From: Nitrospira sp.
GTDB lineage: Bacteria > Nitrospirota > Nitrospiria > Nitrospirales > Nitrospiraceae
Direction: 5' to 3'
Assembly (NCBI GenBank): GCA_024998595.1
Contig: JACOEK010000003.1
Span: 62,001 to 126,000, forward strand
DNA: 64,000 bases
Shown here: positions 25,353 to 48,090 of the stretch, one piece after another
Layout: the number at the start of each line of letters is the position of its first letter
Position numbering within the stretch: the first letter of the stretch is position 1
Notes under the pieces: model-generated
Databases searched by the model: none
The model's input: the letters and a program-made list of their open reading frames with translations, nothing else
Told to the model about the DNA's origin: nothing
Made by a program: the position numbers and the translations under genes

Positions 25353-25606
25353 AGCTGGATCCGACAAGATGAGGATCACTCATGAAGAGTGTATCACAGG
25401 GTGGGCTTTTCTGAGGCACTTCGGGTACCGCACGCTCCAGATCATGCGCACTGTTCGATCCGTTCCGCTCCGAAGCCAGGTGGAGGATGTTTTCGCTGCT
25501 GAAATATACGCAAAGAGTTTCATTGACTTTTTTTTTCAGGTTGGCTACCTTCCAGGCGCCCTTGTGGTGGGCACTTATATTCTCAACCTTTCAAGGAGGG
25601 GTTTCC

Positions 25607-25831
25607 ATGAAGCGTGCTCTATTCGCATTCGTAGCGGCAGCCATTCTCGTTGCGTTCACCGCTCCGTCGTTCGCCGGAGATGACAAGAAGAAGGAAGAGA
25701 AGAAGGGCGGCCACTTCTCCCAGACTCTCTTCGGTGACGACAAGAAGAAGGAAGAGAAGAAGGGTGGACACCTGTCCCAGACCGTGTTCGGCGAAGAGAA
25801 GAAGAAGGACGAGAAGAAGGGCGGACACTAA
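25607..25831 (+). CDS. Small secreted Lys/Glu-rich tandem-repeat protein
   Basis: 74 residues from the ATG preceded by CAAGGAGG. Residues 1-23 form a textbook Sec signal peptide ending SFA. The 51-residue mature protein consists only of 2.7 copies of a 19-residue unit, GDDKKKEEKKGGHFSQTLF, ending at KKGGH. It is extremely charged (Lys/Asp/Glu) with periodic His, Phe and Gln. No family recognised. A strong terminator follows directly and there is no partner gene, so it is monocistronic. Periplasmic or extracellular location is inferred. It could bind a polyanion, metal or surface, but nothing in the sequence decides this. Confidence 0.75.
   Translation: MKRALFAFVAAAILVAFTAPSFAGDDKKKEEKKGGHFSQTLFGDDKKKEEKKGGHLSQTVFGEEKKKDEKKGGH
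25676..25828 (+). repeat. 57-bp tandem coding repeat, 2.7 copies
   Basis: Copies at 25676-25732, 25733-25789 and the partial 25790-25828, in frame with the secreted protein. Copies 1 and 2 are nearly identical at the DNA level in the Lys/Glu part and differ at synonymous and a few conservative positions, while copy 3 swaps DD to EE. This suggests recent duplication by slippage or unequal crossing-over. Confidence 0.85.
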
Positions 25832-25860: not shown

Positions 25861-25904
25861 AAATTGGCTCGCGACTCCGGATGCCGGCGCGGGCCAATTT
25901 TTTT
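25861..25904 (+). terminator. Intrinsic terminator of the repeat-protein gene
   Basis: AAATTGGCTCGCG (25861-25873) pairs with CGCGGGCCAATTT (25888-25900) with one G-T wobble, loop 14 nt, followed by a run of seven T (25898-25904). It starts 29 nt after the stop codon. Confidence 0.88.
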
Positions 25905-25980
25905 GTGTATCCCCTCCGTACCTCCTGCTCGCCTCCCCGTTTCGTTGACCCATTCAGTAAGCCCGTGTTACGGTTCGCGC

Positions 25981-28900
25981 ATGACCGACCATCACACGCC
26001 TCGCGCAGCCAACCGTCTCGCTCACGAAACCAGTCCCTATCTGTTACAGCATGCCTACAATCCCGTGGATTGGTATCCCTGGGGACCGGAGGCGTTGGCG
26101 CAAGCCGCGAAACTGAAGCGGCCGATTCTCCTCTCGATCGGCTATTCCTCCTGCCATTGGTGTCACGTGATGGAGCGGGAGTCGTTCGAAAATGAGGCGA
26201 CTGCGGCGCTGATGAACCAGCACTTCATCTGCGTGAAGGTTGACCGAGAAGAGCGACCGGATCTGGATGAAATCTACATGCAGGCGACTCTGGCGCTGAA
26301 CCGCAATCAAGGCGGCTGGCCGATGACCGTGTTTCTCACCCCCGACCAGAGGCCGTTTTTTGCCGGCACCTATTTCCCTCCGACGGATCGTTACGGCCGC
26401 CCGGGCTTCCCTAGTCTCCTGAAGAAGATCGCTGAGTATTGGGAAAAAGACCATGATGGCGTCGTGACGCAAGCGGCTACCCTGACGGCGCGACTCCAGG
26501 ACGGTAGCCACACCCCGTCTCCGACAACGGTCGGGGAAGCGGAACTCGATTTGGCCGTGACCCAGTTTGCCGAAGATTTTGACGCTAAACAGGGCGGGTT
26601 CGGCGGCGCGCCCAAATTCCCCCCGGCGACAGGGTTGTCGTTACTACTCCACTGTTATCAGCGTACGAAAGATCCCCATACACTGACGATGGTGCGAACC
26701 ACGTTGGATGCCATGGCGGCCGGCGGAATTTATGACCACATCGGTGGCGGCTTCGCCCGGTATTCCACTGATGAGCGCTGGCTGGTGCCGCATTTCGAGA
26801 AGATGCTCTACGACAACTCGCTGTTAGCGCGTGTCTACGTTGAGGCCTATCAGGTGACAGGTGACGACAACTACCGACGCGTCGCCTGCGAGACCCTGGA
26901 CTATATCCTCAAGGAAATGACCTCGCCTGAAGGAGGATTTTACTCCGCCACGGACGCCGATTCAGAAGGGGTCGAAGGGAAGTTCTTCGTGTGGACGCCG
27001 GAAGACGTACGAGTGGCGGTGGACAATGACGAAGACGCCCGCCGGTTCTGCGCCTATTACGATGTGACGGCGGGGGGTAACTGGGAACACACGAATGTGC
27101 TTCATACCGCGAAGAGCGTCGAGGCGGTCGCGAAGGAACTGGGCATCACCGCAGGCGAGTTACGGGACACCATCGCGCGCCTCAGACCGAAACTCTATGC
27201 CGCGCGCACCAAACGGATCGCGCCCGGCCTCGATGATAAGGTCATCACCGCGTGGAACGGGATGATGATCAGCGCCATGGCGGAAGCCGGGCGAGTGTTC
27301 GACATTCCGCGGTACCGGGCTGCTGCCGGGCGCGCCTGTGATTTTCTCCTGACCACGCTCTCTAAGCCGGATGGGCGACTCTTGCGGACCTATCGCGCGG
27401 GCAAGGCACATCTCGATGCCTATCTTGAAGACTACGCGTATTTTGCCGAAGGATTGATCGATACCTATGAGGCAGGCGGCAAGGAGACCTACCTGCTGGC
27501 AGCGGTTCGCCTCGCCGAGCGGATGTTGGCGGATTTTGCCGACAGCGAGCATGGAGGATTCTTCACGACCGGCACGGGTCATGAGGCGTTGATCATGCGC
27601 AGTCGGGAAGGCCCTGACGGGGCCACGCCGAGCGGAAATGCGGTGGCCGCTTCTGTGCTCGGGCGGCTTTCCTATCATTTCGGGCGGGAAGATTTCCGAC
27701 AGGCTGCGGCCGCGGCTGTTCGAGCCTATGGCCGTCAGATCGCCCGCTACCCGCGGGCGTTTGCGAAGAGTCTCATCGTCGTTGATCTCCTCACGAATGG
27801 TCCCGTGGAGATAGCCTTGGTGGGTCGACCGGGGGAACCCGGCACGGAGTCATTGCGCGCTGCCGTGAATCGAACCTATCTTCCCAATCGCGTGCTCGCC
27901 CATCGCGACCCTGAACAGGCCGAGACCGACCATCCGCTGTTGCAGGGAAAAACCTTGATCGACGGCAAAGCGGCGTTATACGTGTGCCGGAATTTTGCTT
28001 GCGGCCGGCCGATCACTGACCCGGTGGATTTCCCTGCCCTGCTGGATCCTACGCAACAGGCGCCTGTGTCTACCACATCGGAGCAGAAGGTCCTGAGCGG
28101 GACATTATGCCCGGGCCATGCGACCGTGCAGGGAACGGCAGCCTATGCCGCACGAAAGATTCATGAAAACACCGGGGCGCTGGCCAATGGATTCGGCCTA
28201 TTCGGCGCGACGGGACTGACGGTCAGCCGATTGGGGTTTGGAACGTATCGGGTCGGCCAGCGTGAGGCGGAACATCGAGAGGCCTTACGCACCGCGCTGC
28301 GCCGGGGCTGCAATTTGATCGATACCTCGACCAATTACATGGATGGTGAAAGTGAGCAGCTGGTCGGTTCGGTCTTGCGGGACATGACGCGCGCGGGCGA
28401 CTTGGCCCGCGAAGACGTCATCGTGGTGTCGAAGATCGGGTATGTGCAGGGCCAGAATTTGACGCAGGCCCAGGCGCGGGAAAAGTCGGGCAAGCCCTAC
28501 CCCGACATGGTGAAATATGGCGATGACATCTGGCATTGCATCCACCCCGATTTTCTGGCGGACCAACTGACGCTGTCGCTGGACCGGCTGGGGTTGGCCA
28601 CGCTCGATGTGTGCCTGCTCCACAATCCGGAGTATTTTCTCTCGCATGCGAACCGTCTCGGCGGAAATGAGCGACGCGACCTATCTGAATTGCGTAAGGA
28701 ATTCTATGCCCGATTGCAACGGGCCTTCGAATACCTCGAAACGCAGGTTTACGCGGGCCGGTTGCGCGGCTATGGAGTTTCATCAAATACGGCCACGTCG
28801 GCTTCCGACGATCCCGGTGCCACCTCTCTGTCTCAGATGATCGACGCGGCCAAATCTGCGGCTTCTTCAGTCGGGGCCTCGTCGCATCACTTTCACGTCC

Positions 28901-29670
28901 TGCAGTGTCCGATGAATGTGTACGAGTCCGGCGCCGCCTTGATCCATAACACAGGCACGCACAACGGAAGCACGCTCTTAGAGGAAGCGATGCGGGAACG
29001 GATCGCCGTGTTGGTCAATCGCCCGTTAAATGCCATGCCGACCCAGCGCAGTGGAGTCGTTCGGCTGGCGGATCTGCCGGTACCGGCTCCCGAGGCCGAT
29101 TTTCAGTCGCAGCAGCAGAAGGTCGCGGTCTTAGAGGAAGAGTATCGCAGCAGCCTTGCGCCTGCCGTGGCCCACAGCGGTCAGGGTATGATCCCCGCCG
29201 ACTTTTTTCGCTGGGCCGATGAACTGACCCGCATACGAGGTCAAGTGCAGGGTTTGGAACACTGGGAACAAATCGAACAACAGATGATTGCGCCGCACGT
29301 GAACCAGGTGCTTCGTGCGCTGGCGGAGGCATTTACCGGCACCGTGGCTGAACAGTGGGAATCCTGGCGGGATCGGTATGTTCCGGAACTGTTGGCGCTG
29401 TTGAGAACCCTGCATCGGGAGGCCTCAGAAAAAAGCCGCCTCAGATCCGACGAACTCCATCGAACCATCAATCCGCTTGTGCCGGAAGAACGACGCACGG
29501 CCACCTTGTCACAGAAGGCGCTGTGGGTGCTCGCCAGCACGCCGGGTGTCACCTCTGTGCTCAATGGCATGCGCACGCCGGCCTACGTAGAGGATGCGCT
29601 GCAGATTTTGCGGTGGCCGCCGCTGTCGGATTGGCGGCCTGTCTATGACCGTTGTGCCGTGAAGAAGTAA
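25981..29670 (+). CDS. Fusion: YyaL-type thioredoxin/(alpha/alpha)6-barrel protein + aldo/keto reductase
   Basis: 1,229 residues from [24 protein letters not shown]; the open frame upstream is not homologous. Residues 1-165 are a DsbH-like thioredoxin domain with CHWC at 58-61 (the YyaL/DUF255 signature [16 protein letters not shown]). Residues about 180-680 are the N-acylglucosamine-epimerase-like barrel of that family ([33 protein letters not shown]). From about 745 an aldo/keto reductase begins ([12 protein letters not shown]) with a full catalytic tetrad: Asp and Tyr in [12 protein letters not shown], Lys in VVSKIG, His in LLHNPE. YyaL-like proteins have unknown substrates; the reductase would use NAD(P)H. 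The frame is continuous across a normal-looking linker. No signal peptide. Confidence 0.88.
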
Positions 29671-30916: not shown

Positions 30917-31259
30917 TCCTTCCTTCAAGTTACGTCTGTGTTCGTTGTGTGCCTGAACGCTCCGATCGCCTTTGCGGTCGGAGTTCCGATTCGGGCAAGG
31001 ATCGCCCCTGAAACCTCTCTCCCTTCCAGCGCCGCGTACATCAGCGGCATGCTTCGACCCACACATTTGCTGACGCCATCACGTCGGGCACTCCATTTTA
31101 TTTCACGACCTTTGGAAGAAAAGCCAGGGTTAACCGTCCCGTAACGTTGGGGTGATCCGGTTGCAATGGTTTCGATATACGTTGGTTGAGGTGTGAAGAT
31201 TCGTGCGATGCCGCGGCTCACCGTTCTGAGAACGACAATTCTACAACGAGGGAGGTTCG
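30917..31259 (+). other. Intergenic region between CBS gene and pstS1
   Basis: 343 nt without a credible gene. A hairpin with CTCCGATCGC / GCGGTCGGAG arms and outer GAAC / GTTC (30955-30986) may end the CBS transcript although no T-run follows. Pho-box-like repeats lie at 31129-31156 and serve pstS1. Short open frames on both strands lack ribosome-binding sites. Confidence 0.6.
31129..31156 (+). promoter_or_regulatory. Pho-box-like direct repeats upstream of pstS1
   Basis: GTTAACC (31129) and CGTAACG (31140) share TAAC 11 bp apart, and GTGAT (31152) is a weaker third unit in the same phase. The site ends about 104 nt before the pstS1 ATG. Confidence 0.6.
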
Positions 31260-32294
31260 ATGATGAGAAGTGTGTTCCGTGTATCCGTAGTAGCAGGCCT
31301 GATCGGGATATTGATTGGCCCCTCAGTTTCCGAGGCGCAGCTCAAGCCGGTCATTGATCCTCAGATCCAATCATATGCCAAGGCCGCAGGCGTTTCCGGC
31401 GGACTGACGGTTGCCGGGTCGGAGATGATGAAAGCGCTGTCGCACCGATGGGAGAGCAAACTGAGAGAGTTCTATCCTGGTCTCACCATTCAAATCCAAG
31501 GTATCGGATCGGAAACGGGTCCGCCGGCTCTCCTGGAAGGAAAAGCTCAAATTGCGGCCATGTCTCGCCAATTGACCAAAAAGGAAATTGAAGAATTCAG
31601 ACAACGCTATGGCTATGAACCGACGGAAGTGCCTGTCGCTGCAGACGCCTTATCCGTATTCGTGCATCGGGACAACCCGATCTCAGGCATGACCCTCCCT
31701 GAGCTCGACGCGGTGTTTTGCAAGGAGCATCGTCGCGGTTTGAATGAAGATAGAATCAGTTGGTCGCAATTCGGACTGTCCGGCGAATGGAGCGAGGCAT
31801 CGATTGCGCTGATCGGGCGAAACAAAGTGTCCGGGACAGCCACCTTCTTTCGCGAACAGGTCTGTGGGAACGGTGACTTCAAGGACACTCTGAAAACAGA
31901 GGCCGGCTCGGCCTCCGTCGTCATGGGGATCAAGAAGGATCGGTATGCCGTCGGTTTCAGCGGTATCGGGTATCGAACCTCATCCGTAAAACCTGTTCCC
32001 CTCGCGGTGGCGAAGGATAAGCCATTCATCGAACCCACTTTTGAAACGGTCACCGACGGTACCTACCCGTTGCGTCGGCACCTCTTCCTGTACGTCAACA
32101 AGTCTCCGAAGGCGGCCATGCCCGCTGCGGTGACGGAGTTTGTGAAGTTTGCGGTGAGTCTTGAGGGACAGCAGGCAGTGATCCAGGAGGGATTTTTCCC
32201 TTTACCGACCGCTCAGCTGAACAGTCTGTTTGCGGCCTGGTCCCAACCTCTTCAGGCGGCGACCGCTCCACATGCCATCCCTGCCCGCGACTGA
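31260..32294 (+). CDS. Phosphate-binding PstS-like periplasmic protein (copy 1)
   Basis: 344 residues with a Sec signal peptide (cleavage near SEAQ). Type II periplasmic binding protein of the TIGR02136-like group: VSGGLTVAGSEMMKALSHRW, IAAMSRQLTKKEIEEF..RYGYEPTEVPVAADALSVFVHRDNPI, and the ligand motif GRNKVSGTATFF that corresponds to R..SGT in E. coli PstS. The E. coli ligand Asp (in GASDAP) is replaced by the MSR loop of this group. GAGGGAGG precedes ATGATG. A Pho-box-like site lies upstream and a strong terminator downstream, so it is transcribed alone, without permease genes. Phosphate specificity is inferred. Confidence 0.85.
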   Translation: MMRSVFRVSVVAGLIGILIGPSVSEAQLKPVIDPQIQSYAKAAGVSGGLTVAGSEMMKALSHRWESKLREFYPGLTIQIQGIGSETGPPALLEGKAQIAAMSRQLTKKEIEEFRQRYGYEPTEVPVAADALSVFVHRDNPISGMTLPELDAVFCKEHRRGLNEDRISWSQFGLSGEWSEASIALIGRNKVSGTATFFREQVCGNGDFKDTLKTEAGSASVVMGIKKDRYAVGFSGIGYRTSSVKPVPLAVAKDKPFIEPTFETVTDGTYPLRRHLFLYVNKSPKAAMPAAVTEFVKFAVSLEGQQAVIQEGFFPLPTAQLNSLFAAWSQPLQAATAPHAIPARD

Positions 32295-32317
32295 CCGCAA
32301 TTCAATGATGCTCTCCT

Positions 32318-32358
32318 ATCGCGCCGCCCTGTCGGGCGGCGCGATGTTCTTTCTTTCC
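32318..32358 (+). terminator. Intrinsic terminator of pstS1
   Basis: A perfect 12-bp stem ATCGCGCCGCCC (32318-32329) / GGGCGGCGCGAT (32334-32345) with loop TGTC, followed by GTTCTTTCTTTCC. 23 nt past the pstS1 stop. Confidence 0.85.
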
Positions 32359-32398: not shown

Positions 32399-33088
32399 AT
32401 GAATCTGACTCGAATCGTCCCCTTATGCTGCATGACATTCCTTCTCGGACTCGCCGGATGCGAAAATCGGCAGTTCCCGACCATGATTCTCTATGAGAGC
32501 CCTACGAGCTTTGTGCGTCTCGAACATGATCCGATGGCACGCGGGAGCCAGCGCCACTCGCACCCAGTCGCAATCACGGCGGAAGAGATGGCGGCCGTGT
32601 GGTCGGGTCTCATGATCGTGGAACCTTCCCGCCTGTTTTCTTTTCTGGACAAAAACAAGGAGCCGCAGCGTCACCCGGCATTCAATGACGCAGAAGTTCG
32701 TTTCTTTTCACCATTGCTTGCCAAAGGACTAGGCCAAGCCACGTCTGAAGAGGTGGTGACGTTTTATCAGACCCATCAGGATACGGCGATTATCAGAAAG
32801 GTGACGTCGGGGGGAATGTTTGTGGATGGTGAAGACCTGCACATCGTATTGAGCAATTATCGTGCACCGACACATGCAGCTTCCGATCCCGGTGTCGACG
32901 ATACGACGGATGATCGGTTGACGCCCATGCGAAGAATTGCTCCGCAGGAGGCTCGCCTTGAGTTTGAACCCTCAGGTGCGATCGCCCCCTCTCAGGAAAC
33001 CGGTGTATCGAGTCTCTTCAGTGCTGAGCGCCGGGAAGTGGTGGTGCGTTATCGCCGCCTGGCACCGGCAAACGCCGGTGCCAGGTAG
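32399..33088 (+). CDS. Lipoprotein of unknown function, paralogue of the 36.7-kb lipoprotein
   Basis: 229 residues from ATG with GAGGAAG 6 nt upstream. The signal peptide ends in the lipobox LAGC (Cys19-21 region), then the mature part. The core ITAEEMAAVWSGLMI....P.F.D.EV.....LL...GQATSEEVV.F......I...TSGGMFVDGEDLHIVLSNY closely parallels the lipoprotein at 36729-37700 (LTTEDIRVLLGSLMV....P.FTDMELTRIA, TTGALFLRGRYLHIVLTDH). No named family is recognised. It has a position between pstS1 and porin 1, convergent with the porin, inside the phosphate island; an envelope role in phosphate starvation is inferred. Confidence 0.75.
   Translation: MNLTRIVPLCCMTFLLGLAGCENRQFPTMILYESPTSFVRLEHDPMARGSQRHSHPVAITAEEMAAVWSGLMIVEPSRLFSFLDKNKEPQRHPAFNDAEVRFFSPLLAKGLGQATSEEVVTFYQTHQDTAIIRKVTSGGMFVDGEDLHIVLSNYRAPTHAASDPGVDDTTDDRLTPMRRIAPQEARLEFEPSGAIAPSQETGVSSLFSAERREVVVRYRRLAPANAGAR
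33058..33085. other. Perfect 12-bp stem-loop abutting a stop codon
   Basis: CCTGGCACCGGC (33058-33069) / GCCGGTGCCAGG (33074-33085), loop AAAC; the TAG stop of the lipoprotein follows at 33086. It sits between convergent genes and would work on both transcripts, but no T-run follows on either side. Confidence 0.75.
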
Positions 33089-33120
33089 CAGCAGGAGAGA
33101 TCGGGTTTCAGTCGACCCCT

Positions 33121-34479
33121 CTAGTAATTCCACTGCAACTGAAAGCGGATCAAATTCCCATAGTTTTCCTGGTAGGGATTCGATCCCGTCGCAGCCGATG
33201 AGGTTCGATTCGTAAAAGCGTACATCGCAGTCAGCTCGATGGCCTGGTTGAACTGATACTCGATACCGAGTTCCAGCTCGCGCACGACGTTCCTCGGTGC
33301 GTTGGCTTCATGCTTTTTTCCGCCGTAGTACTCCTGGTAGCGTACGAAAGGAAAGACGTTCAGGCAATAGGTTGAACATTTGTAATTGTACATGGCTTGA
33401 ACATAGCCGCCGTAGAGATCGCTTTGATCGATCGATCTTCTGTCTGCGCTTAGTTGCGGCCCCTGTCCGACGGTATATTCGGCTTGCAAGCCGAAAGGTT
33501 GCGGATAGAGCACAAAATACGCTGCAGCTCGTTCGTCCCTGATATTGTTGTTTCCTCGTGGTGTCACGGCCGCACCCCCGGCTAGTGGCACGACAGCCGT
33601 TTTTGTCACGTTGAACATTCCTTGATACGCACTTACTCCGACCTCGAGGATTTGCCCGTTGGCAAATTCGTACGGATAGGCAGCACGGACGATCATGTGC
33701 TTGTCATCGTTCCGTTCAGGCTGGTTGGCGGTTTGACCGTTGTAGACACCGAAACCCAGCATGCCGTAATCGCCGGATCCCTTCAATCCGCTATCCACCA
33801 GCCGCCTGAAGCGTTCTCGAACATGAGTGGGCGCGTAATACAGGAATAACCCGAAATCACGTTCGTTCGACACCGCGCTGTTCAAGGCGTCGTTTCGGTC
33901 GAGCGCCAGACGGTTTTGGCTGGATTGAAGATTCTCGAATCCATAAGGAACTTTGGATTGTCCTGCCCGGAGGCGCCATTCCTTGTTCTCCGTGAGGAAC
34001 AAATCCGCGTACCAGTCGCGTAACTGAACAGCATGACTCGTGCCTCCGACAGTCGAAGCAAAATCCGGCTGGATATACACGAACAACCGTGGATGCACTT
34101 CACCGCTCAAAATCATGCGGGCGCGACGTAAGAAAAAGCCGTTATTATCTCCGATGGATTTATCACCTTGATCGCTGAGCAGATTGCCGTTCGGGTTGCC
34201 CAACCGATTGAAGCGCATCTGGCTGTACCCGCGAATGCTGATCTTTTCGTACCACTTAGCCTTGACCGGTGTGTCGCCGACGCCCCGGCTCTCTTCAAAC
34301 ACTTTCGCTTCTCGTTTTTCTTCTTCAGCCTTCAACTCCACCCACTCGTCGATCGACATCTGTCCCTTACTGAGCATCAGGTCTTCTAATCCCCCCGCAC
34401 GCGCTACTCCCGTGCCCAGGCCGCAAAGCGCCGTCAACGCACATGTACTCATTACGTACCATCCCCATCCTCGCGTCAT
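33121..34479 (-). CDS. Phosphate-selective porin-like outer-membrane protein (OprP/OprO family), porin 1
   Basis: 452 residues. Signal peptide to about ARA (28). A short periplasmic helical segment follows (LEDLMLSKGQMSIDEWVELKAEEEKRE), then a beta-barrel typical of PF07396: ISIRGYSQMRFN, RRARMILSGEVHPRLFVYIQPDF, RLRAGQSKVPYGFENLQSSQNRLALDR, ERDFGLFLYY and a C-terminal aromatic ending FQLQWNY. Such trimeric porins pass phosphate or pyrophosphate across the outer membrane; the basic selectivity loops are not verifiable by eye. GGAGGAG precedes ATG. Pho-box-like repeats lie 62 nt upstream. Confidence 0.87.
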   Translation of the reverse strand: MTRGWGWYVMSTCALTALCGLGTGVARAGGLEDLMLSKGQMSIDEWVELKAEEEKREAKVFEESRGVGDTPVKAKWYEKISIRGYSQMRFNRLGNPNGNLLSDQGDKSIGDNNGFFLRRARMILSGEVHPRLFVYIQPDFASTVGGTSHAVQLRDWYADLFLTENKEWRLRAGQSKVPYGFENLQSSQNRLALDRNDALNSAVSNERDFGLFLYYAPTHVRERFRRLVDSGLKGSGDYGMLGFGVYNGQTANQPERNDDKHMIVRAAYPYEFANGQILEVGVSAYQGMFNVTKTAVVPLAGGAAVTPRGNNNIRDERAAAYFVLYPQPFGLQAEYTVGQGPQLSADRRSIDQSDLYGGYVQAMYNYKCSTYCLNVFPFVRYQEYYGGKKHEANAPRNVVRELELGIEYQFNQAIELTAMYAFTNRTSSAATGSNPYQENYGNLIRFQLQWNY

Positions 34480-34540
34480 GCTGCTCCTCCCAATTGGTGG
34501 TGTTGAACGTGTCGTATCGCAGGGAGAGTACTGACGACGC

Positions 34541-34557
34541 GTTACCGAGGCGTTACG
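34541..34557 (-). promoter_or_regulatory. Pho-box-like direct repeats upstream of porin 1
   Basis: On the minus strand CGTAACGCCTCGGTAACG: two GTAAC units exactly 11 bp apart, 62 nt from the porin start, followed about 20 nt later by a GATACGA -10-like element. Confidence 0.6.
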
Positions 34558-34898
34558 TAGAGCTATGGCCGCAGTTAATTCTCAGAGAGCCGGGAGTGGG
34601 CTCGACCACCGGAAGAGTGATTCCACAGACTGCTGGTTGGTGAGGAGAAGTAATACGTAATTGCTCCCACTCACAATCCGATGTCGCAAGAGAGTCTGCC
34701 CTGGATGCGGAACGCGCAGACGGACAAGATGGAACTCCGTCGATGTCAATTGCCAATCTCCTGGCAACCGAGGTGAGTGTCGAAGTGTTGTTGGTGCAAT
34801 ATTTGTTGCTGCAGGTGTCGGCTGGAGAGTACGAGCTGGTTAGGATGAAATTCGCTTCGGACTGTCCACCCGACTGTCATCCGGAGCGAGAGCAGGAT

Positions 34899-34916
34899 TT
34901 AACACAGCCGTAACAT
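34899..34916 (+). promoter_or_regulatory. Pho-box-like direct repeats upstream of pstS2
   Basis: TTAACACAGCCGTAACAT: TAACA at 34900 and 34911, 11 bp apart, about 80 nt before the pstS2 ATG. Nearly identical to the sites before porin 2 and the PhoB-like gene. Confidence 0.65.
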
Positions 34917-34997
34917 GCCAGTGATGTGCCAGCAATCATGGATGCATATGATGGGCCGAGCTACAGACGAGACTACTACCTAGCGGAGGACATGAAC

Positions 34998-36116
34998 ATG
35001 TTGGGTCAAGGACAAAGTCAGGGATGGGGAAGGCGAACAGTCCTTGCGAGCTTGGCGGGGATTATGGCTACCGCAGGCTCCTTGGCCGTGCTTCCGATGC
35101 AGGTCGCGCAGGCCGAGAATGCAGGGCCGACGGCGAGTCTGGCTATTGAGGAAGGGTTGGTACAATACAACCCGCAGGCTCAAGTGGCAGGGAGTCTTCG
35201 CGTTCAAGGCTCCGATACGATGTCTCTCCTCCTGAGTCGTCTGGCCGGCGAGTTTCAACGGCGTCAGCCGAATGTTTCGATGAATGTGAGCGGTGGCGGA
35301 TCGACCAAAGCGGTGAACGAATTCATTCAACCAGCGGCCAAATTGAGCGGTAAAATAACCCTCAAAGAAGAACGGCCGACCTACGTGTCTCTGGTGGCCT
35401 CCTCACGTGAATTGCTTGATACGGAAGTCAAACAATTTGTCGCACAGCATGGATATGAACCGACCGCCATTCCCGTGGCGATCGATGCCGTGGCGCTCTA
35501 TGTCCATCGTGATAATCCCATCCAAGGCCTGACGCTTGACCAAGTGGACGCCATGTTTTCAACCACCCACAACCGCGGATTGAAAACGAATCTGTCGCAG
35601 TGGGGTGCGCTGGGCCTCCAGGAAGGTTGGGAGAAAGCTCCTGTCAGACTGTATGGCCGGGACCGGCGATCAGGAACGCGGGCTTTTTTCCAGGAGCATT
35701 GTTTGGCCGGCGGTGAGTTCGCCCCGACGCTTCGTGAGGAGCCGGGCGCCGCTTCGGTGATCCTTGACCTGACGCGTGATCAATTGGGTATCGGCTATAG
35801 CGGTTTAGGACTGGAAACTTCGAATGTGCGGATTGTGCCGCTCGCGGAGAATCAAGGCATGCCGTTTGTCGCACCCACGGCGGCAACCGTCGCGGACCAA
35901 ACCTATCCCCTTCGCCGGATGCTCTATCTCTACGTAGACAAGTCTCCGAAGGTCCCCCTTGCACCGGCTGTGCAAGAATTCCTGACGTTCGTGACGAGTC
36001 GTGAAGGGCAGGAAGCTGTGATGAAGGCCGGATTTTTCCCTCTCCCCATGAACCAGCTGAAGAAGAATTTTCTGGCACTCGGCCTCAGCAGCGGGGATGC
36101 GACGCTGACGAACTAA
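34998..36116 (+). CDS. PstS-like periplasmic binding protein (copy 2), possible Tat signal
   Basis: 372 residues from the second of two nearby ATGs, because GGAGG lies 8 nt before it and only 2 nt before the first. The N-terminus has GWGRRTVLASLAGIMATAG...AQA, with twin arginines before the hydrophobic core, suggesting Tat export. The fold resembles copy 1 (QGSDTMSLLLSRLAGEFQ, HGYEPTAIPVAIDAVALYVHRDNPI, ligand motif GRDRRSGTRAFF) but the usual MSR loop reads VASSREL, and about 15 extra residues (AKLSGKITLKEERPTYV) come before it. Ligand may thus differ from phosphate. It is a stand-alone gene with its own Pho-box-like site. Confidence 0.82.
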   Translation: MLGQGQSQGWGRRTVLASLAGIMATAGSLAVLPMQVAQAENAGPTASLAIEEGLVQYNPQAQVAGSLRVQGSDTMSLLLSRLAGEFQRRQPNVSMNVSGGGSTKAVNEFIQPAAKLSGKITLKEERPTYVSLVASSRELLDTEVKQFVAQHGYEPTAIPVAIDAVALYVHRDNPIQGLTLDQVDAMFSTTHNRGLKTNLSQWGALGLQEGWEKAPVRLYGRDRRSGTRAFFQEHCLAGGEFAPTLREEPGAASVILDLTRDQLGIGYSGLGLETSNVRIVPLAENQGMPFVAPTAATVADQTYPLRRMLYLYVDKSPKVPLAPAVQEFLTFVTSREGQEAVMKAGFFPLPMNQLKKNFLALGLSSGDATLTN

Positions 36117-36728
36117 GCCTTTCTTCCAAGCCTCTGCAGCCGCAGGTCATCGAGGCTCTCTCCTCCGGGGCCTGCGGCCTGTCTGTCGCTTCCCTCCTCA
36201 TTTTGACGAGCCACCTCCGCTAGTATCTCAGCCCAGGCATTACGGACATTTCTGAAGAACGCGACCGTATGACATTTCGCTCGTACTTGATCTGCCTCAG
36301 TTTTACCCTGACTACGGCAGCTCGCAATTTGTCCGACAGATTGGTCGAAGATATGTATCGCCGACCTACCTTTTGCGTGAAGCGACCGCCCATGTCGTGC
36401 GCCTAAATGCTTAGGAAACGGACGCTTGTCAGGGAACGGTCGCAATACGGGTCGAGAAGGGAGAGTTACGAAAGCTGAACAGACGCTGCTGACAATTCGC
36501 ATAATCATCCCCGATTCAGCCGAAAGTGGGCGGACTTTGGGGGAGATCGCCTTCAAGCAGGCACGGCGCGGAGACGTAGAGGGAACTCTACGCTGGATTG
36601 AGCTGGCGGAACTCCCCGCTCATAAGGCCTTTGCCCTCTCGGAGGTAGCACGCGCCCTCATGGATCCCAATGAGAACTAACTTCTCATCACGATAGCGGG
36701 ACGGTAGGTGCAGTTTCTGGAGAGTCTG
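36117..36728. other. Gene-poor stretch after pstS2, possible remnants
   Basis: 612 nt. A plus-strand frame at 36426-36680 ends in protein-like sequence (LGEIAFKQARRGDVEGTLRWIELAEL, a helical-repeat look) but has only a TTG to start and no ribosome-binding site. A minus-strand frame at 36113-36556 overlaps it antisense and ends plausibly too (RNAWAEILAEVARQNEEG). Both may be decayed gene pieces. An 8-bp GCCGCAGG / CCTGCGGC inverted repeat (36139-36178) could help end the pstS2 transcript. Nothing else seen. Confidence 0.45.
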
Positions 36729-37700
36729 CTATTGCGAGGTGGACTTGCGAGCTGGTTTGTTCTTTGAGCGAGCGGAGTCGAGATCCTGCTGGAGTTTCAA
36801 CAGTTGATCCTGTAAGGCCTGCATCTGCTTATGTTGATCATTCAGGCGATCACGAAGGTCCAGATTTGAGCTAGTGAGCTCACGGACCTGAAGGCGGAGT
36901 TCATCGGCCTGATTCGTTGAATTACCTGCTCCCCCCTCACTACGCGTCCCGGCTGACGCCGAATTTGTCACGGGAGGCGGTATCGACGATAACCCTCCCT
37001 GCGGGGGCGTAGCGGGCCGGTTTCGCAGGGCGATGACCTCCTTCGCGTTGACCGAGAGGTGTACTTTTTCAAAATGAGCCCAGCGTGGTTCTTCTGCATC
37101 GGGCACCGTGGCCGCTGTCGCCGGCGCCGCGACCCACAATTTCATTCCCTTTGTATCCCGTAAATCCTTGAGATCCCCTCCGGCCGTATCAGTTCCGGTA
37201 AAGGCGGAGTGATCCGTAAGCACGATATGAAGGTATCGGCCACGCAGAAACAGTGCGCCGGTCGTGCGTTCCTCGCTGTATGTCGTCTGCGATTTGGGCA
37301 AGGAGAAAAACACGCGCTCGGTGGGGCCTGCCTGTTGGAAAGCCTGTGCAATCGGTGCTGCAATACGGGTTAACTCCATATCGGTGAAGACAGGTACCGG
37401 TCGGGGCTGTTCCAAAATTCCGACGAGGGTTCCGCTCCAGCCGCTGACCATCAACGAGCCGAGGAGTACCCGAATGTCCTCCGTCGTCAGCTGCGAGGGA
37501 TGATTATTGTCTGTAGGCGCAGGGCCTCGATGGACGGTAGGATCCGACTGGATTCCAATCTGGCTGTCTTGTTGGTCATACAGCACTTTTCCGCTCGATA
37601 GGAGGGAGCAGGCGGAGGTCAGGCACATGATCGTGAGAAGGCACAGGGTGCGACGCAGTCCCGTCAGCGGGGGTGAGGTGTCTCTGGAAGTTAATTGCAT
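36729..37700 (-). CDS. Lipoprotein with C-terminal coiled coil, paralogue of the 32.4-kb lipoprotein
   Basis: 323 residues. The ATG overlaps the preceding lipoprotein gene by 10 nt; the longer open frame upstream is not used. Signal peptide with lipobox LTSAC. Core about 60-230 (LTTEDIRVLLGSLMV, PVFTDMELTRIAAPIAQAFQQAGPTERVFFSLP, GALFLRGRYLHIVLTDH) is shared with the lipoprotein at 32399-33088. A Pro/Ala linker precedes a coiled coil of about 60 residues (ELRLQVRELTSSNLDLRDRL...LLKLQQDLDSA). Last gene of the porin 2-slp-lipoprotein run. Function unknown; outer-membrane or peptidoglycan-spanning scaffold is a guess. Confidence 0.75.
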   Translation of the reverse strand: MQLTSRDTSPPLTGLRRTLCLLTIMCLTSACSLLSSGKVLYDQQDSQIGIQSDPTVHRGPAPTDNNHPSQLTTEDIRVLLGSLMVSGWSGTLVGILEQPRPVPVFTDMELTRIAAPIAQAFQQAGPTERVFFSLPKSQTTYSEERTTGALFLRGRYLHIVLTDHSAFTGTDTAGGDLKDLRDTKGMKLWVAAPATAATVPDAEEPRWAHFEKVHLSVNAKEVIALRNRPATPPQGGLSSIPPPVTNSASAGTRSEGGAGNSTNQADELRLQVRELTSSNLDLRDRLNDQHKQMQALQDQLLKLQQDLDSARSKNKPARKSTSQ

Positions 37701-38053
37701 GTGAACTGAATCCCCCACAGTCTGTCGCCTCCCATTTGCCCTCGCCAGGCTCGATCCGCGGCGGGGCTCACCTTCGGTATTTCGCCTTCTTTCTGAACGT
37801 GTGATCCGGCCGGGCATTTGCGGTTGATCAGCTCCATGGCGTCGCGCCGCTGGTTGGATGTGAGGATATCGACTTCATTCTGAAACGGATACGTGACGAG
37901 TCCTCCCGTCGGCGTGTCGCGGACGAGCTTCACATCTCCTCCGCAGGCGGTGCATGCCCACACCAGCAAGAGTGCGGAGGACGCGTGAAGCAGGGCATTC
38001 CGCCTTCCTGCTGGCCAGGTCGTTGTAAAAGCTGTCAGCGGGACTCGGCGCAA
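37691..38053 (-). CDS. Small lipoprotein, unknown
   Basis: 120 residues from a TTG start with GGAGGAG 5 nt upstream, overlapping the slp end by 19 nt. A basic N-terminus and hydrophobic segment lead to CTAC (lipobox-like) with GGDVKLVRD after it. The mature ~80 residues include three further cysteines? Two are seen: KCPAGS and the C-terminal FTCN, likely a disulfide. The pattern NRKCPAGSHVQKEGEIP recalls small periplasmic proteins with a single domain, but no family is named. Coupled to both neighbours, so it is probably made together with them. Confidence 0.65.
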   Translation of the reverse strand: MRRVPLTAFTTTWPAGRRNALLHASSALLLVWACTACGGDVKLVRDTPTGGLVTYPFQNEVDILTSNQRRDAMELINRKCPAGSHVQKEGEIPKVSPAADRAWRGQMGGDRLWGIQFTCN

Positions 38054-38574
38054 TAGGTCTCCTCCTCAAGTGGCTGATATCCTGCCCCAAAGTTCGGAAA
38101 ATCAGCAATCTCTTTTCCCCCGGTGTTCCAGATGTGAAGACACTGGGCTGTGAGAGCCGGGAGACTACGTTGACTATCTTCAATGGCGACCACCGCGGAA
38201 TTTTGTGTGGTTCCGATGGCAATGACGCGATTTCCGGGTTGCAAATGATTCGTGGGTACTTTGCCGTTGAAATACACCAGGAATTCTCCCCTTCCCCGTT
38301 CCTTGTCGGTGGGACCATAAGCCGGGTGCTCGACGATCGGCAATTGGGTCAGGACCATGCTCACCAGGCCGTCTTTTTGGGGTGCTTGAAGGATACGGCC
38401 ACCAAGCTGCACCTTCTTCCCCGCCTTGGCATTGGGGACCATACGCCAGGCCATAAAGTCAAAATTCTGATCCACCCCGTCCACTACCTGGGGTGAGAAG
38501 ATCTGCTGGGGTCCGCATCCACTGAGCATGATGCTGATCAGTACGCCCGCGATCGCTCCTCTGTATCTCTTCAT
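38035..38574 (-). CDS. slp: Slp-family outer-membrane lipoprotein
   Basis: 179 residues from ATG with AAAGG upstream. Lipoprotein signal with MLSGC, then the Slp pattern: VQLGGRILQAPQKDGLVSMVLTQLPI..HPAYGPTDKERGRGEFLVYFNGKVPTNHLQPGNRVIAIGTTQ. E. coli Slp is a starvation-inducible outer-membrane lipoprotein of unknown mechanism, so a starvation role fits. It begins 66 nt downstream of porin 2 and its end overlaps the next lipoprotein gene by 19 nt; it is likely in the porin 2 transcript under the Pho-box-like site. Confidence 0.82.
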   Translation of the reverse strand: MKRYRGAIAGVLISIMLSGCGPQQIFSPQVVDGVDQNFDFMAWRMVPNAKAGKKVQLGGRILQAPQKDGLVSMVLTQLPIVEHPAYGPTDKERGRGEFLVYFNGKVPTNHLQPGNRVIAIGTTQNSAVVAIEDSQRSLPALTAQCLHIWNTGGKEIADFPNFGAGYQPLEEETYCAESR

Positions 38575-38639
38575 GGGATACCTTTCACTTCTCTCTAGCC
38601 CGGTTTGATTTAAGTCCATCGGCAATCGCGTTCGCATCA

Positions 38640-40187
38640 CTACATGAATCGTATCTGCCACTGTACCAAGAAGGCATTCTGGGCGAAAGGGTCACCGACG
38701 CCGCGGGTGGGATCGACGACGTTGTTGGCTCCATTGCCGGAATGGTGACGGAATTCATAGTTGACCTGCAACTTCGATTGAACCTTCGGCGGAAAGTTTT
38801 CAAAGTAGTAACTCAGACCGACGATGGTTCTGGTGTAAAGGTCATTGCCGATTCTGGTGTTCGGGTCGAATTGTTCGTACATGACGACCGGCTCAAAGTT
38901 TTCGAGCGGACCGTCGGTAATCAAGTACTTGGCCAGCACATACCAGGTGCGTCGCTGCACGCCCGGGGCGCCGGAGCCGCCGCAGATGGTTTGCACATCG
39001 CAGGCCCCGTTGGCCGGCCGTCCGACCGTAGTTTGATTTGCGCCATCATGCCCCTGCCAGATTTCTCCCTGCACCATGAAGCCGGGCAGAATCTTCGATG
39101 TGTAGCGGAAGTCCAACCCGTAGCGATCGAAGGCGCCTTTGCCACGGCCGTTGATATTGGTGTTGGCGTTGTTCGACTCGCCTTGAATCGTGGTGAAACT
39201 GATAAACGACACGTCGCTCCCGAAGAGACGCACCCGTGAGTAGAAGCTCTTGGGCGCGTTCGATCCGGTCGCGTTGGCATGGTAATTGTTGTTGTTCATA
39301 ATACCGGCCACATACTCCAGCCGGTTGAACAGTTTGCCACGCATGTCGAGGAAATAATCACGCTCTTGGAGAAACTCGACTGTACCGGCGGACCCGGTAC
39401 GATTGCCCACTCCGGAACCGACCGACGTGAGGTATGGGGAACTGATGACATCGCGTAACCCACCGGACGTTTCCGTGAAGATACCGAACGGCATTCGAAA
39501 GATACCCATGCGAAAATAATTCACGTTCGGCGCCCATGATTGCACCGGCCGCACGTCCAGATAGGCTTCCCGAAAGAACGTCGATGAGGTCGGTACTCCG
39601 CCTGTGGCCGCACTGCCTCCGGTCGGCGTGTTATTCAACAGATTGATGCTTTGAAACTCCATCAACGTGTGCCATCGAGGCAGCGTGTCGCTAATGCGGC
39701 CCCAGAAGAGGATTTCCGACCGCCTGATGGACAGGTTGTCCTGGCTTCGCCCTTCCGCCACATGCGCATCCTGGTGGGTGTACAACCATTGCAGCGCATT
39801 CAGTCCGAAATTCACCTTGTCCCTGAGAATCGGCAACAACTCAGCTTTTGATTTCCATTCGTCCAGGGTGTCGACACGCTTGTCTCGTTCCCCGCCCTTG
39901 TATTCCTGTTCGGCACGAATCTGAATCCATTCCTCTTTGGTGATCGTCCCCTTCTGCATCAAGAGGTCTTCGATGGACGTGCCGCCGAGAGGAATGTCCG
40001 GTGCAGCCGGCGGAGTTGCTGGGGCGCTCGGAGATGGGCCCATGGACTGGGCTACTACGGTATGGGGCGGCGGGGTCGCGGGGCCCACCCGTGGTGACTC
40101 ATCTGCCCAGGATGCAGTTAGGCACAGACTGAACATCGCGGTCCCTGCGAGACCGCTGATGGTTGCAACCAAAGGGCGTCTTTCCAT
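38640..40187 (-). CDS. Outer-membrane porin-like beta-barrel protein, porin 2
   Basis: 515 residues from the ATG with GGAGG 9 nt upstream; the longer frame runs into the promoter and the RR gene. Signal peptide to about SWA. A Pro-rich stretch leads to IEDLLMQKGTITKEEWIQIRAEQE, the same helical motif as in porin 1 (LEDLMLSKGQMSIDEWVELKAEEE), then a barrel-like remainder (IRRSEILFWGRISDTLPRWHTLMEFQ, FREAYLDVRPVQSWAPNVNYFRMGIFRMPFGIF) ending VQWQIRFM. Alternation and aromatic ends support an outer-membrane porin. Substrate not known; Pho-box-like repeats upstream suggest phosphate or phosphate ester uptake. Confidence 0.82.
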   Translation of the reverse strand: MERRPLVATISGLAGTAMFSLCLTASWADESPRVGPATPPPHTVVAQSMGPSPSAPATPPAAPDIPLGGTSIEDLLMQKGTITKEEWIQIRAEQEYKGGERDKRVDTLDEWKSKAELLPILRDKVNFGLNALQWLYTHQDAHVAEGRSQDNLSIRRSEILFWGRISDTLPRWHTLMEFQSINLLNNTPTGGSAATGGVPTSSTFFREAYLDVRPVQSWAPNVNYFRMGIFRMPFGIFTETSGGLRDVISSPYLTSVGSGVGNRTGSAGTVEFLQERDYFLDMRGKLFNRLEYVAGIMNNNNYHANATGSNAPKSFYSRVRLFGSDVSFISFTTIQGESNNANTNINGRGKGAFDRYGLDFRYTSKILPGFMVQGEIWQGHDGANQTTVGRPANGACDVQTICGGSGAPGVQRRTWYVLAKYLITDGPLENFEPVVMYEQFDPNTRIGNDLYTRTIVGLSYYFENFPPKVQSKLQVNYEFRHHSGNGANNVVDPTRGVGDPFAQNAFLVQWQIRFM

Positions 40188-40268
40188 TACGAACATCCTC
40201 CTTGTGTCTTTGATTTCGTGGATGCGGGCGGATGGTAGTCGAGATGCATCACACCCACGTTCAAACAC

Positions 40269-40285
40269 TGTTACCGCTGTGTAAA
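40269..40285 (-). promoter_or_regulatory. Pho-box-like direct repeats upstream of porin 2
   Basis: Minus strand GTTTACACAGCGGTAACA: TTACA and TAACA units 11 bp apart, about 82 nt from the porin 2 start. It differs from the site of the PhoB-like gene by one base. Confidence 0.65.
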
Positions 40286-40350
40286 CCATGTCGTTGATTT
40301 GGCGACAGCGCAGATTATGTCTTTCTCCCAGGACGAGCTCTTGGGCCTGA

Positions 40351-41061
40351 TCAATCTGCAGACAGTTTGTAGCCCACACCCCTGACCGTGAGAATCCATT
40401 GCGGGGCTGACGGCCTGTCCTCTACTTTCTGACGGAGTGCGTGGATATGAACATCCAACGCATGCTCTTCGAGTGCGTAGTCTTCTCCCCAGACAAGGTT
40501 GAGCAGTTCCTGGCGCGTCAGCACGCGTCCCGCATGTTGCAAGAGAACACGGAGAATCTGGAACTCCTTCGGCGTGAGCTGGATCGATCGCTCATCAACT
40601 CGCACCTCGTGACGATCGAGATTCATGGAAAGCGCATTGACTCGAAATTCCCTGGGAGGCGCGGATTGTAATTCCTGCCTGCGAAGCAGTGCCTTGATGA
40701 TGGCCAGCCATTCACGATGCCGGTAGGTATCGATGACGCTATCGAAACCTGCGGCAAGGTCCTTTACGGTCTCCTCCTCCGTGCAAGCCACTCCCCGTGG
40801 TTGAAGTGCGATCATGGGAATGCGCTGAAACACGTGGTTTTGTCGCAAGACTGCAATGATCTTGTGTCGCCGGTCGATGAGCGCCAGTTTGAACGCGGCT
40901 CGCGGTGCGAGGGACAGGGCAACCTCAGCCGTCGGCGCGAGGGACACATGATACCCGTTCGGTCGCAAGAGATGGTGAACCACTGCTGCACATTCTTCGT
41001 CTTTGGTCACAAGGAGTACTGCGATTCCCTGATGCCGTAGTGGTTCCGTCGTCTGCTGCAT
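40351..41061 (-). CDS. PhoB/OmpR-type regulator with degenerate receiver
   Basis: 236 residues. The C-terminal winged-helix domain (about 140-236) is canonical: SIQLTPKEFQILRVLLQHAGRVLTRQELLNLVWG....EEHALDVHIHALRQKVED and ILTVRGVGYKL. The N-terminal receiver is shortened: the strand with the phosphoacceptor reads LALIDRRHK without the usual LMLPG loop, the switch Thr is replaced (MIALQP), and the conserved Lys near GADDYLVKP is missing (GFDSVIDTYRH). Phosphorylation-independent or differently triggered control is likely. It has a Pho-box-like site 44 nt upstream (autoregulation) and is divergent from psiE. No kinase gene adjoins it. Confidence 0.85.
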   Translation of the reverse strand: MQQTTEPLRHQGIAVLLVTKDEECAAVVHHLLRPNGYHVSLAPTAEVALSLAPRAAFKLALIDRRHKIIAVLRQNHVFQRIPMIALQPRGVACTEEETVKDLAAGFDSVIDTYRHREWLAIIKALLRRQELQSAPPREFRVNALSMNLDRHEVRVDERSIQLTPKEFQILRVLLQHAGRVLTRQELLNLVWGEDYALEEHALDVHIHALRQKVEDRPSAPQWILTVRGVGYKLSAD

Positions 41062-41104
41062 AGCCCGATGCTACCGGCAGAGGGTTGCAGGCCTGTATCC
41101 CGAT

Positions 41105-41121
41105 TGTTACGGCTGTGTAAA
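41105..41121 (-). promoter_or_regulatory. Pho-box-like direct repeats upstream of the PhoB-like gene
   Basis: Minus strand ATTTACACAGCCGTAACA: TTACA and TAACA 11 bp apart, 44 nt before the start codon, consistent with autoregulation. Confidence 0.65.
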
Positions 41122-41172
41122 TACCGCAGCGTGATGTACTTGTCGTTTGAAGTGACCCGATTTCGGGAAAAC

Positions 41173-41199: not shown

Positions 41200-41321
41200 T
41201 GCCATGGAACAATGGGACGGTAGATTTACCCTGAAGGTCGTGGTCCACGGGATCTGGAAAGACCCACCGGGCAAGATGCTCAACCATGACCCGCTCAATC
41301 ACACGGAGGCGTACGCAGGTT

Positions 41322-41831
41322 ATGACGTTCACAAACTTTCCCGCTCGGGTGCCACGGGTCGCAGATTTCGCCAGTCGCGTCATTGAAACGGATCTCACTG
41401 ACCTCTGGATGAAGGGGATTAAAGGGGTGTTGAGTCTCCTGATTTTGACGATCCTCATTGCACTCACGGGAGGGGTCATCAAAACGTTCCTGGATATCGG
41501 ACTGTTACTGAATGCGGCGGTTGAAGTCGGGCTTCGACAGATCATTGTGGATACGCTGATCCTGCTCGCGGTGGTTGAGGTCTTCAAGACGACGCTGACC
41601 TATTTCTCGGAGGGGCGCGTCAAGGTGACGTTTATCGTCGATACGATTCTGGTCGTCATGCTGACGGAGATCATTTCCCTCTGGTTCAAAGAAGCCGACC
41701 AAGTCAAACTCCTCTCGTTGGGAGCCATCGTGCTGGCGTTGGGAGCGGTACGAGTCGTCGCCGTGCGCTGTTCGCCAGCGCAGGGCGAAGGCGGTGGCAA
41801 ATGCGGGGGCTCCTGTCGGGAAGGCATCTAG
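41322..41831 (+). CDS. psiE: PsiE-like phosphate-starvation-inducible membrane protein
   Basis: 169 residues from an ATG with GGAGG 12 nt upstream; an ATG 12 codons earlier (41286) is an alternative. Four hydrophobic segments follow a cytoplasmic start: GVLSLLILTILIALTGGVI, IIVDTLILLAVVEVF, TFIVDTILVVMLTEIISLWF and LLSLGAIVLALGAVRVVAV. This is the PsiE topology, with FKTTLTYF..GRVKVTFIVDTILVVMLTEII matching the family. In E. coli psiE is PhoB-controlled; the triple repeat upstream agrees. The Cys/Gly-rich tail (GGGKCGGSCREG) is not usual. Molecular function is unknown. Confidence 0.82.
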   Translation: MTFTNFPARVPRVADFASRVIETDLTDLWMKGIKGVLSLLILTILIALTGGVIKTFLDIGLLLNAAVEVGLRQIIVDTLILLAVVEVFKTTLTYFSEGRVKVTFIVDTILVVMLTEIISLWFKEADQVKLLSLGAIVLALGAVRVVAVRCSPAQGEGGGKCGGSCREGI

Positions 41832-43011: not shown

Positions 43012-43085
43012 CCTCAACGATTGTGGTCGCGGTTGTTAATTTGACGAGATCAGGGACCATGACCGCGGGAGCGTGGGAAGGGAAA

Positions 43086-43103
43086 GTTAACATGGTGTTT
43101 ACA
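43086..43103 (+). promoter_or_regulatory. Pho-box-like direct repeats upstream of pstS3
   Basis: GTTAACATGGTGTTTACA: GTTAACA (43086) and GTTTACA (43097) are 11 bp apart, about 89 nt before the pstS3 ATG and the pst operon. Confidence 0.65.
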
Positions 43104-43191
43104 TTGGGCTGATGGTGTGGAAATGCCATCACCCTATGATCGGCACTGCACTATGACATACAGGGCCCTTTTAACCGGAGGAATGTCTTCT

Positions 43192-44202
43192 ATGGCCGTC
43201 TCACGTCAGATTTGCTTGAGTCTCACGCTGACCGTGTTGGGTCCGTTTATGACCACCTGTCTAGTCAATGCCGCACAGGCTGGTGCTCCCGCGTCTCAAA
43301 CCCTCACCATCGATGCCGAGATCAAACCCTATGCGAAGGTCAGCGGCGTGTCGGGAACGATCAACAGCATCGGGTCCGATACCCTCAACAATCTCATCAC
43401 CCTGTGGGCGGAGGGATTTCGCAAACAGTACCCCAACGTCAAAATTCAAGTAGAGGGGAAGGGGTCGAGCACGGCGCCTCCTGCGCTGATCGAAAATACG
43501 GCTCAGCTGGGTCCCATGTCACGAACGATGAAGTCGAGCGAGATCGATGCGTTCGAGGCGAAGTTCGGGTACCCGCCGACTCCCTACCCTGTGGCGGTCG
43601 ATGCCTTGGCGCTCTTCGTGAACAAAGACAATCCGATCAAAGGGCTCACGGTTGCAGAGGTGGACGCGCTGTTTTCCAAATCGCGCCGCCAAGGTTCGCT
43701 CATCGACGTGACGCGCTGGGGGCAACTCGGTCATACCGGTGATTGGGCCCAGGCGCCGGTCAGTCTGTATGGTCGCAACTCGGCTTCCGGCACCTATGGG
43801 TTTTTCAAGGACCATGCGCTCAAGAATGGCGACTTCAAGGATCAGGTGAAGGAACAGCCAGGATCCGCCTCTGTGGTGCAAGGCGTCAGTGAGGATCGCT
43901 ACGGCATCGGCTACAGCGGAATTGGGTACAGCACTTCAGGGGTCAAAATGGTCCCGCTCGCGGCGAAGGCCGGGCAGCCGTTTATCGAACCGTCACATGC
44001 CAATACGAAGAACGGGACCTATCCACTGTGGCGGTATCTCTACATCTATGTGAATCAAGCGCCGGGGAAACCACTCTCCCCTATCGTGAAGGAGTTTCTC
44101 AATTACGTGTATAGCAAGGAAGGCCAGTCCGACGTGCTGAGGGACGGGTACTTCCCTGTCGATGCGAAATTGGTTGAGCAACAACTCGGCAAGATTCGGT
44201 AA
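43192..44202 (+). CDS. pstS: Phosphate ABC transporter substrate-binding protein (copy 3, operonic)
   Basis: 336 residues from the ATG 10 nt after GGAGG. Signal peptide to about [72 protein letters not shown] and the ligand motif [12 protein letters not shown] define the TIGR02136-like phosphate-binding group. It is the only copy linked to permease genes: its TAA overlaps the pstC ATG by 1 nt. It delivers phosphate to PstCAB from the periplasm. Pho-box-like repeats upstream indicate induction by phosphate starvation. Confidence 0.92.
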
Positions 44203-48072: not shown

Positions 48073-48090
48073 TCACTGAGAGGAGTTCGC

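Follow-up and report, generated by a model that had tools for sequence, protein, structure and literature searches.

Genes of the phosphate locus

The DNA analyzed here is a 64-kb window (the whole stretch under study: Nitrospira sp. contig JACOEK010000003.1, positions 62,001 to 126,000, to which all coordinates given without a locus number refer). It holds a phosphate locus with two porin genes, each accompanied by the gene of a lipoprotein, named lp1 and lpC. These two lipoproteins, the family to which they belong and the outer-membrane barrels beside which most of its types are found are the subject of this analysis.

The first part of the locus comprises pstS1 (31260-32294, + strand), lp1 (32399-33088, +), porin1 (33121-34479, -), which lies tail to tail with lp1, and pstS2 (34926-36116, +). 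Both phosphate-binding proteins match PBP_like_2 (93 bits for PstS1, 109 bits for PstS2) and remain below the cut-off of 206.6 bits of TIGR02136, PstS1 only slightly (199.7 bits) and PstS2 more clearly (171.3 bits); the start of pstS2 is uncertain, as an ATG occurs about 63 nucleotides (nt) further in. Porin1 is an OprP/OprO-type porin that matches PF07396 over profile positions 16-370 with 133.2 bits (cut-off 20.9), and lp1 encodes a short lipoprotein of 229 amino acids with the lipobox LAGC-E. The gap between pstS1 and lp1 contains a terminator-like hairpin (32317-32346, +; stem of 13 base pairs (bp), T-rich tail, z -4.6) that is kept in the related locus L012. Simple co-transcription of pstS1 and lp1 is doubtful because this strong hairpin separates the two genes; transcription of lp1 may depend on read-through or start at a promoter of its own, and the hairpin may set a high ratio of PstS to lipoprotein.

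The second porin gene, porin2 (38640-40187, -), is followed by slp (38035-38574, -), lpB (37691-38053, -) and lpC (36729-37700, -). The overlaps of 19 nt between slp and lpB (38035-38053) and of 10 nt between lpB and lpC (37691-37700) are exactly those given, together with this gene order, in an earlier sequence-only reading of the window, and the paralogy of lp1 and lpC proposed there was likewise confirmed (BLASTP E 5e-13). The lpB gene, which has a TTG start after an AGGAGGA site, encodes a small Cys-containing lipoprotein, and LpC has the lipobox TSAC-S. No credible match was found for lp1, lpC or lpB in Pfam or NCBIfam. Slp belongs to the Slp family of outer-membrane lipoproteins (PF03843, 45 bits, cut-off 22.5), like Slp of E. 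coli, from which it differs in being far under the cut-off of the NCBIfam slp model TIGR00752 (27.2 versus 88.45 bits). The genome has four Slp genes, two of which adjoin members of the lp1/lpC family. The lpB family has three to four copies per genome, at the phosphate locus, at a molybdate locus, where its relatives adjoin modA, and at a third locus; this third copy and two canonical Slp genes are located away from porin loci. Two lpB-like genes stand in tandem 3' of modA (L030 3244-4176).

Porin2 appears to be a remote, far-diverged member of PF07396. Its match to the Pfam profile is above the cut-off (26.2 versus 20.9 bits) and short, covering profile positions 2-109 only, and its profile-profile match to porin1 has an E value of 2e-10. 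The structure model, of low confidence (pLDDT 53), has 16 strands and a helical segment at the N-terminus, and Foldseek matched it to OmpC, OmpF and Omp32 (probability 1.00 to OmpC and Omp32, E about 1e-10). Identity of porin2 across Nitrospirota is 62-96%.

On the other side of porin2 lie the gene of an OmpR/PhoB-type regulator with a degenerate receiver (40351-41061, -; Trans_reg_C 103 bits, no Response_reg match, conserved Lys missing), a gene for a psiE-like phosphate-starvation membrane protein (41286-41831, +), which was named by sequence resemblance and is kept in related loci, a second regulator gene, the pstS3-pstC-pstA-pstB genes (43117-48954, +), named from their sequences and conserved order, and phoU (48976-49644, +; PF01895, two domains in one protein), the sole PhoU gene of the genome. 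The locus thus has three PstS genes and one pstCAB set.

The porin2 cassette is also present in other genomes. Relatives of lpC were found in 18 loci, and in 17 of them porin2 adjoins the lpC relative; the exception (L028) ends at a contig edge. In the lpC-bearing loci slp is present in nearly all cases and lpB in most, and pst genes accompany them except on a few short contigs. The cassette is kept beside diverged pst operon types in several loci, and slp is shifted before porin2 in others; it has been retained as a group through rearrangement, beyond the synteny of close relatives. All lpC relatives in the species-level genome collection come from Nitrospira or Nitrospirae. The phosphate locus of a second GTDB family likewise has a PF07396 porin with a lipoprotein of the family.

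Pho-box-like repeats

The sequence-only reading had assigned Pho-box-like sites to the porin and pstS genes. With the E. coli consensus CTGTCAT-N4-CTGTCAT only weak matches were obtained, none of them above background, and this consensus was dropped as a detector in favour of a repeat found by reading the region itself. The claim holds in this second form: a direct repeat GTWAACA-N4-GTWAACA, with a period of 11 bp, is located 5' of every phosphate transcription unit in the window. A search for repeats of this type at a fixed score gave nine matches in the 64 kb, all 5' of phosphate genes, and none in Markov controls. The matches are located 131 nt upstream of pstS1 (31129-31146, +), upstream of porin1 (34540-34557, -), upstream of pstS2 (34898-34915, +), as three units upstream of porin2-slp-lpB-lpC (40258-40286, -), between the first regulator and psiE (41094-41122, -), and between the second regulator and pstS3 (43085-43103, strand unassigned).

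Because the choice of score was partly made by eye on the window's own phosphate genes, the fair test is provided by loci not used for it; two of these (L012 and L013) are closely related to the window and the remainder are diverged. They contained 85 matches, with about five expected, and 59 of the 85 precede a recognised phosphate gene by no more than 350 nt. In L012, L013, L014 and L017 the repeats of the porin2 cassette occupy the equivalent position, about 100 nt 5' of it, and in cassettes that have been reordered, beginning with slp or with pstS2, the repeat keeps its place before the first gene. Nine regions of the same genome around other copies of the lipoprotein family, about 134 kb in total, gave two matches. 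A strict IUPAC pattern applied genome-wide gave 18 matches (47 for the reversed control) and is too strict to list all sites. Phosphate control of the locus is very likely, because the repeat precedes every phosphate unit both here and in the reshuffled relatives, and the genes would presumably be induced by low phosphate.

The regulator gene 40351-41061 adjoins porin2 and has Pho-box-like repeats in front of it; its product could be an atypical phosphate regulator. A near-perfect inverted Pho-box-like sequence was also observed about 0.65 kb 3' of a ppk1-like gene (L077 2691-2707).

The lipoprotein family and its neighbouring barrels

A family profile (A3) detected 11 copies in this genome and between 6 and 13 per genome in 25 members of the genus. 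In a sample of 118 genomes of the phylum Nitrospirota the family is present in 41, all of a single class, Nitrospiria, and no member was found in the other classes. A sequence search of the PDB gave no relative, and an open-access literature search, which does not cover subscription journals, found no paper describing the family.

The neighbourhoods of 58 family copies from six genomes were analyzed, with genes called by a simple longest-ORF (open reading frame) script. The copies fall into 11 locus-fixed types, of which 10 form single clades in the tree, mostly with 100/100 support; the Nad type is split in two. Seven types adjoin an outer-membrane barrel. Two of them are the phosphate types, Pho1, the clade of lp1 (with porin1 and pstS), and Pho2, that of lpC (with porin2, slp and lpB); the others are Mod (with modA, a second binding protein and a porin), Sul (with a porin and a binding protein, a sulfate-binding protein gene adjoining in some genomes), Aio (with a PiT-like permease, a porin and arsenite oxidase), Urt (divergent from a barrel and a urea transporter) and Heme (with a CxxCH-bearing barrel). 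The Tol type lies beside tolC, and the Nad/ure, Atp (after atpC) and Mia (miaB) types are apart from barrels. The solutes were assigned with curated models, whose cut-offs are passed by ModA, the sulfate-binding protein, arsenite oxidase and the UrtA-type binding protein.

A lipobox is present in 55 of the 58 copies (its absence from the other three is probably due to start choice) and Asp at position +2 in none, so that the family is predicted to consist of outer-membrane lipoproteins. In the structure model of LpC (m02eaa0e8cd28; pLDDT 69) the lipoprotein signal is followed by an alpha/beta domain (residues 36-226), a disordered linker and a C-terminal helix of about 50 residues. The short types lp1, Mod, Sul and Tol are without this helix, and one class-level relative has a SHOCT-like segment at its end. 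The lipobox Cys, a His-Pro pair, a Phe and a Gly are invariant among the 11 members of the genome.

The neighbourhood comparison suggested by the sequence-only reading showed that the family is not found mostly away from porins and pst genes. In the six genomes, 14 of the 15 PF07396 genes have a family copy no more than 2 kb away (1.3% expected); the corresponding p value of 6e-26 overstates the independence of the cases, since the genomes are related. The presence of lipoprotein and barrel also coincides at two further loci. The arsenite-locus barrel occurs in four of the six genomes (G000, G001, G014 and G018), which are exactly those with the arsenite lipoprotein, and the urea-locus barrel in another set of four (G000, G014, G017 and G018), exactly those with the urea lipoprotein; at both loci the two genes are lost together. 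The arsenite oxidase genes (L029 1452-8285) are flanked by a PiT-like permease, the barrel and the family lipoprotein. A large barrel (L032 7614-9104), predicted to be in the outer membrane and bearing a CxxCH haem motif at its N-terminus, is paired with a lipoprotein of the family in each of the six genomes.

Profile comparisons showed that the barrels of the Porin_O_P type are mutually related, whereas those of the arsenite, urea and haem loci showed no relationship to the OprP type or to one another. A PDB sequence search with the arsenite and urea barrels gave no match. At the urea locus of G112, a genome of the second GTDB family, the lipoprotein stands beside urtA together with a different barrel. 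The same kind of lipoprotein is thus combined with different urea barrels and is therefore tied to the locus and not to one barrel family, and the phosphate and urea loci of the second family indicate that several types predate the family split. Descent of all pairs from one duplicated porin-lipoprotein operon was rejected, the barrels belonging to several unrelated families. The molybdate and sulfate pairs look like products of co-duplication; simple co-duplication fails to explain the pairing as a whole, because of the unrelated barrels and the exchanged urea barrel.

Possible functions and comparison with known systems

The explanation that we prefer, and to which we would give an even chance, is that lp1 and lpC belong to a Nitrospiria-specific outer-membrane lipoprotein family in which each orthologous type serves one envelope device, mostly a beta-barrel for the entry of a scarce solute, and couples the barrel to a binding protein. 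The phosphate types would be lp1 with porin1 and lpC with porin2, induced along with Pst through PhoB-like boxes. The lipoprotein would be located on the side of the outer membrane that faces the periplasm, bound to its own barrel, and would keep the cognate periplasmic binding protein or, by way of the C-terminal helix, the wall in contact with the barrel or its outlet. A solute entering the pore would be caught at once and handed to the inner-membrane transporter, with a presumed gain in uptake. The locus fixation, the co-loss and the multiple barrels are all accounted for by a role as barrel partner. A more far-reaching version, in which the lipoprotein of every porin docks the matching binding protein, forming solute-specific trans-periplasmic relays that would correspond to SusCD but serve ions and urea and need no energy, we consider rather doubtful.

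Several points weigh against this explanation. Three of the 11 types (atp, miaB and nadE/ure) are not directly adjoined by a barrel, and the link of the tolC type to tolC is one of convergent genes only, so that the family may have a more general role. The arsenite and urea barrels were assigned from a C-terminal signature and strand pattern only, the urea barrel mainly by the signature, and the +2 sorting rule was taken from E. coli and may not hold in Nitrospirota. The invariant residues look structural, which suggests that they do not form a shared ligand site. The model of the lipoprotein domain is of middling confidence, and a fold search with the LpC model found nothing credible (Z no higher than about 5, on the long helix), a result that says nothing on the novelty of the fold.

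A tentative alternative is a dedicated role of the lipoprotein in assembling or stabilizing its barrel, like that of LptE for LptD or of accessory Bam lipoproteins, with no part in solute transfer. The presence of the lipoprotein tracks that of the barrel, its partners include several unrelated barrels, ligand-like residues are not conserved, the lipoprotein was retained at the G112 urea locus where the barrel was swapped, and a tolC neighbour would also fit. However, factors of the LptE type normally serve one barrel family, the link of the lipoproteins to binding proteins and permeases is equally tight, and the atp and miaB types lack a barrel. It seems unlikely that the family is a general envelope lipoprotein, such as a peptidoglycan tether, multiplied under local regulons and found near porins through a shared envelope need without forming a complex. 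The high copy number across the lineage, the tether-like C-terminal helices (LpC model) and the distance of the atp, miaB and nadE types from barrels are consistent with it, but the types are strictly locus-fixed, they are lost together with particular barrels, and nearly all PF07396 genes have a family neighbour.

The sequence-only reading had proposed a phosphate capture system in which porins, Slp, the paralogous lipoproteins and PstS feed a single Pst transporter without dedicated permeases; the conserved cassette with its Pho boxes at pst and the three PstS proteins for one pstCAB set agree with this, but as the exclusive function it is very improbable, and indeed refuted, since nine of the 11 lipoprotein types, and most copies, are at molybdate, sulfate, arsenite-oxidase, urea, tolC and other loci, several of which have their own permeases, lpB occurs at the molybdate locus as well and Slp is a general family. 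Phosphate uptake survives as one use of the family. Capture feeding Pst is hypothetical even there, and an adaptor or assembly role would fit at least equally well because the invariant residues look structural.

Returning to the barrel-partner explanation, the arrangement of a barrel with a dedicated lipoprotein is known in outline from the SusC-SusD pairs of Bacteroidetes (PMC7782687, PMC7618045) and from BtuB-BtuG (PMC10404256). The likeness lies in the many paralogous barrel-lipoprotein pairs per genome, one per solute and under solute-specific control. The Nitrospira barrels, in contrast, are porins and not TonB-dependent transporters, matching PF07396 or nothing, and the solutes are small ions and urea; lp1 and lpC gave no SusD match in Pfam up to E 1 and no fold match. 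MlaA binds the trimeric porin OmpC from the membrane side, a likeness that is here a proposal, but it moves phospholipids and forms its own family (PMC10719372), and no MlaA match was found for lp1 or lpC in Pfam or NCBIfam. The porin operon of ExtI in Geobacter (PMC5877670) is similar in being linked to oxyanions and in having a porin of the same broad family (the Nitrospira porins match NF040900 weakly, under its cut-off), but there the porin gene lies among cytochromes and further ext genes, and no ext model matched lp1 or lpC. OprP and OprO of Pseudomonas resemble porin1, the molybdate porin and the porins of relatives, which are above the Pfam cut-off, and share the phosphate locus and starvation-type control; porin2 differs in being far diverged and in lying in a cassette with three lipoproteins. 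We know of no lipoprotein partner of OprP.

The porins and slp belong to known families, whereas the lipoprotein family is unnamed and outside SusD and MlaA. Nitrospira are oxidizers of nitrite and complete oxidizers of ammonia in soils, waters and treatment plants, often at sites poor in phosphate and trace metals, and our analysis suggests that this lineage has its own way of supplying channels with dedicated partner proteins. If true, an unnamed family spread over 11 or more fixed loci and linked to the porins of several nutrients would be a new lineage-level solution to outer-membrane crossing. The list of barrel-lipoprotein pairs is of use as well, as the type of the adjoining lipoprotein hints at the substrate of unlabelled porins.

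Two further genes were noted upstream of the locus. A small ORF with tandem DDKKKEEKKGGHxSQTxFG repeats (25487-25831) is located 5' of a thioredoxin-domain gene, a very long ORF (25864-29670) which, as read from its translation, encodes a DUF255/YyaL-type thioredoxin-domain protein fused to an aldo/keto reductase-like region.

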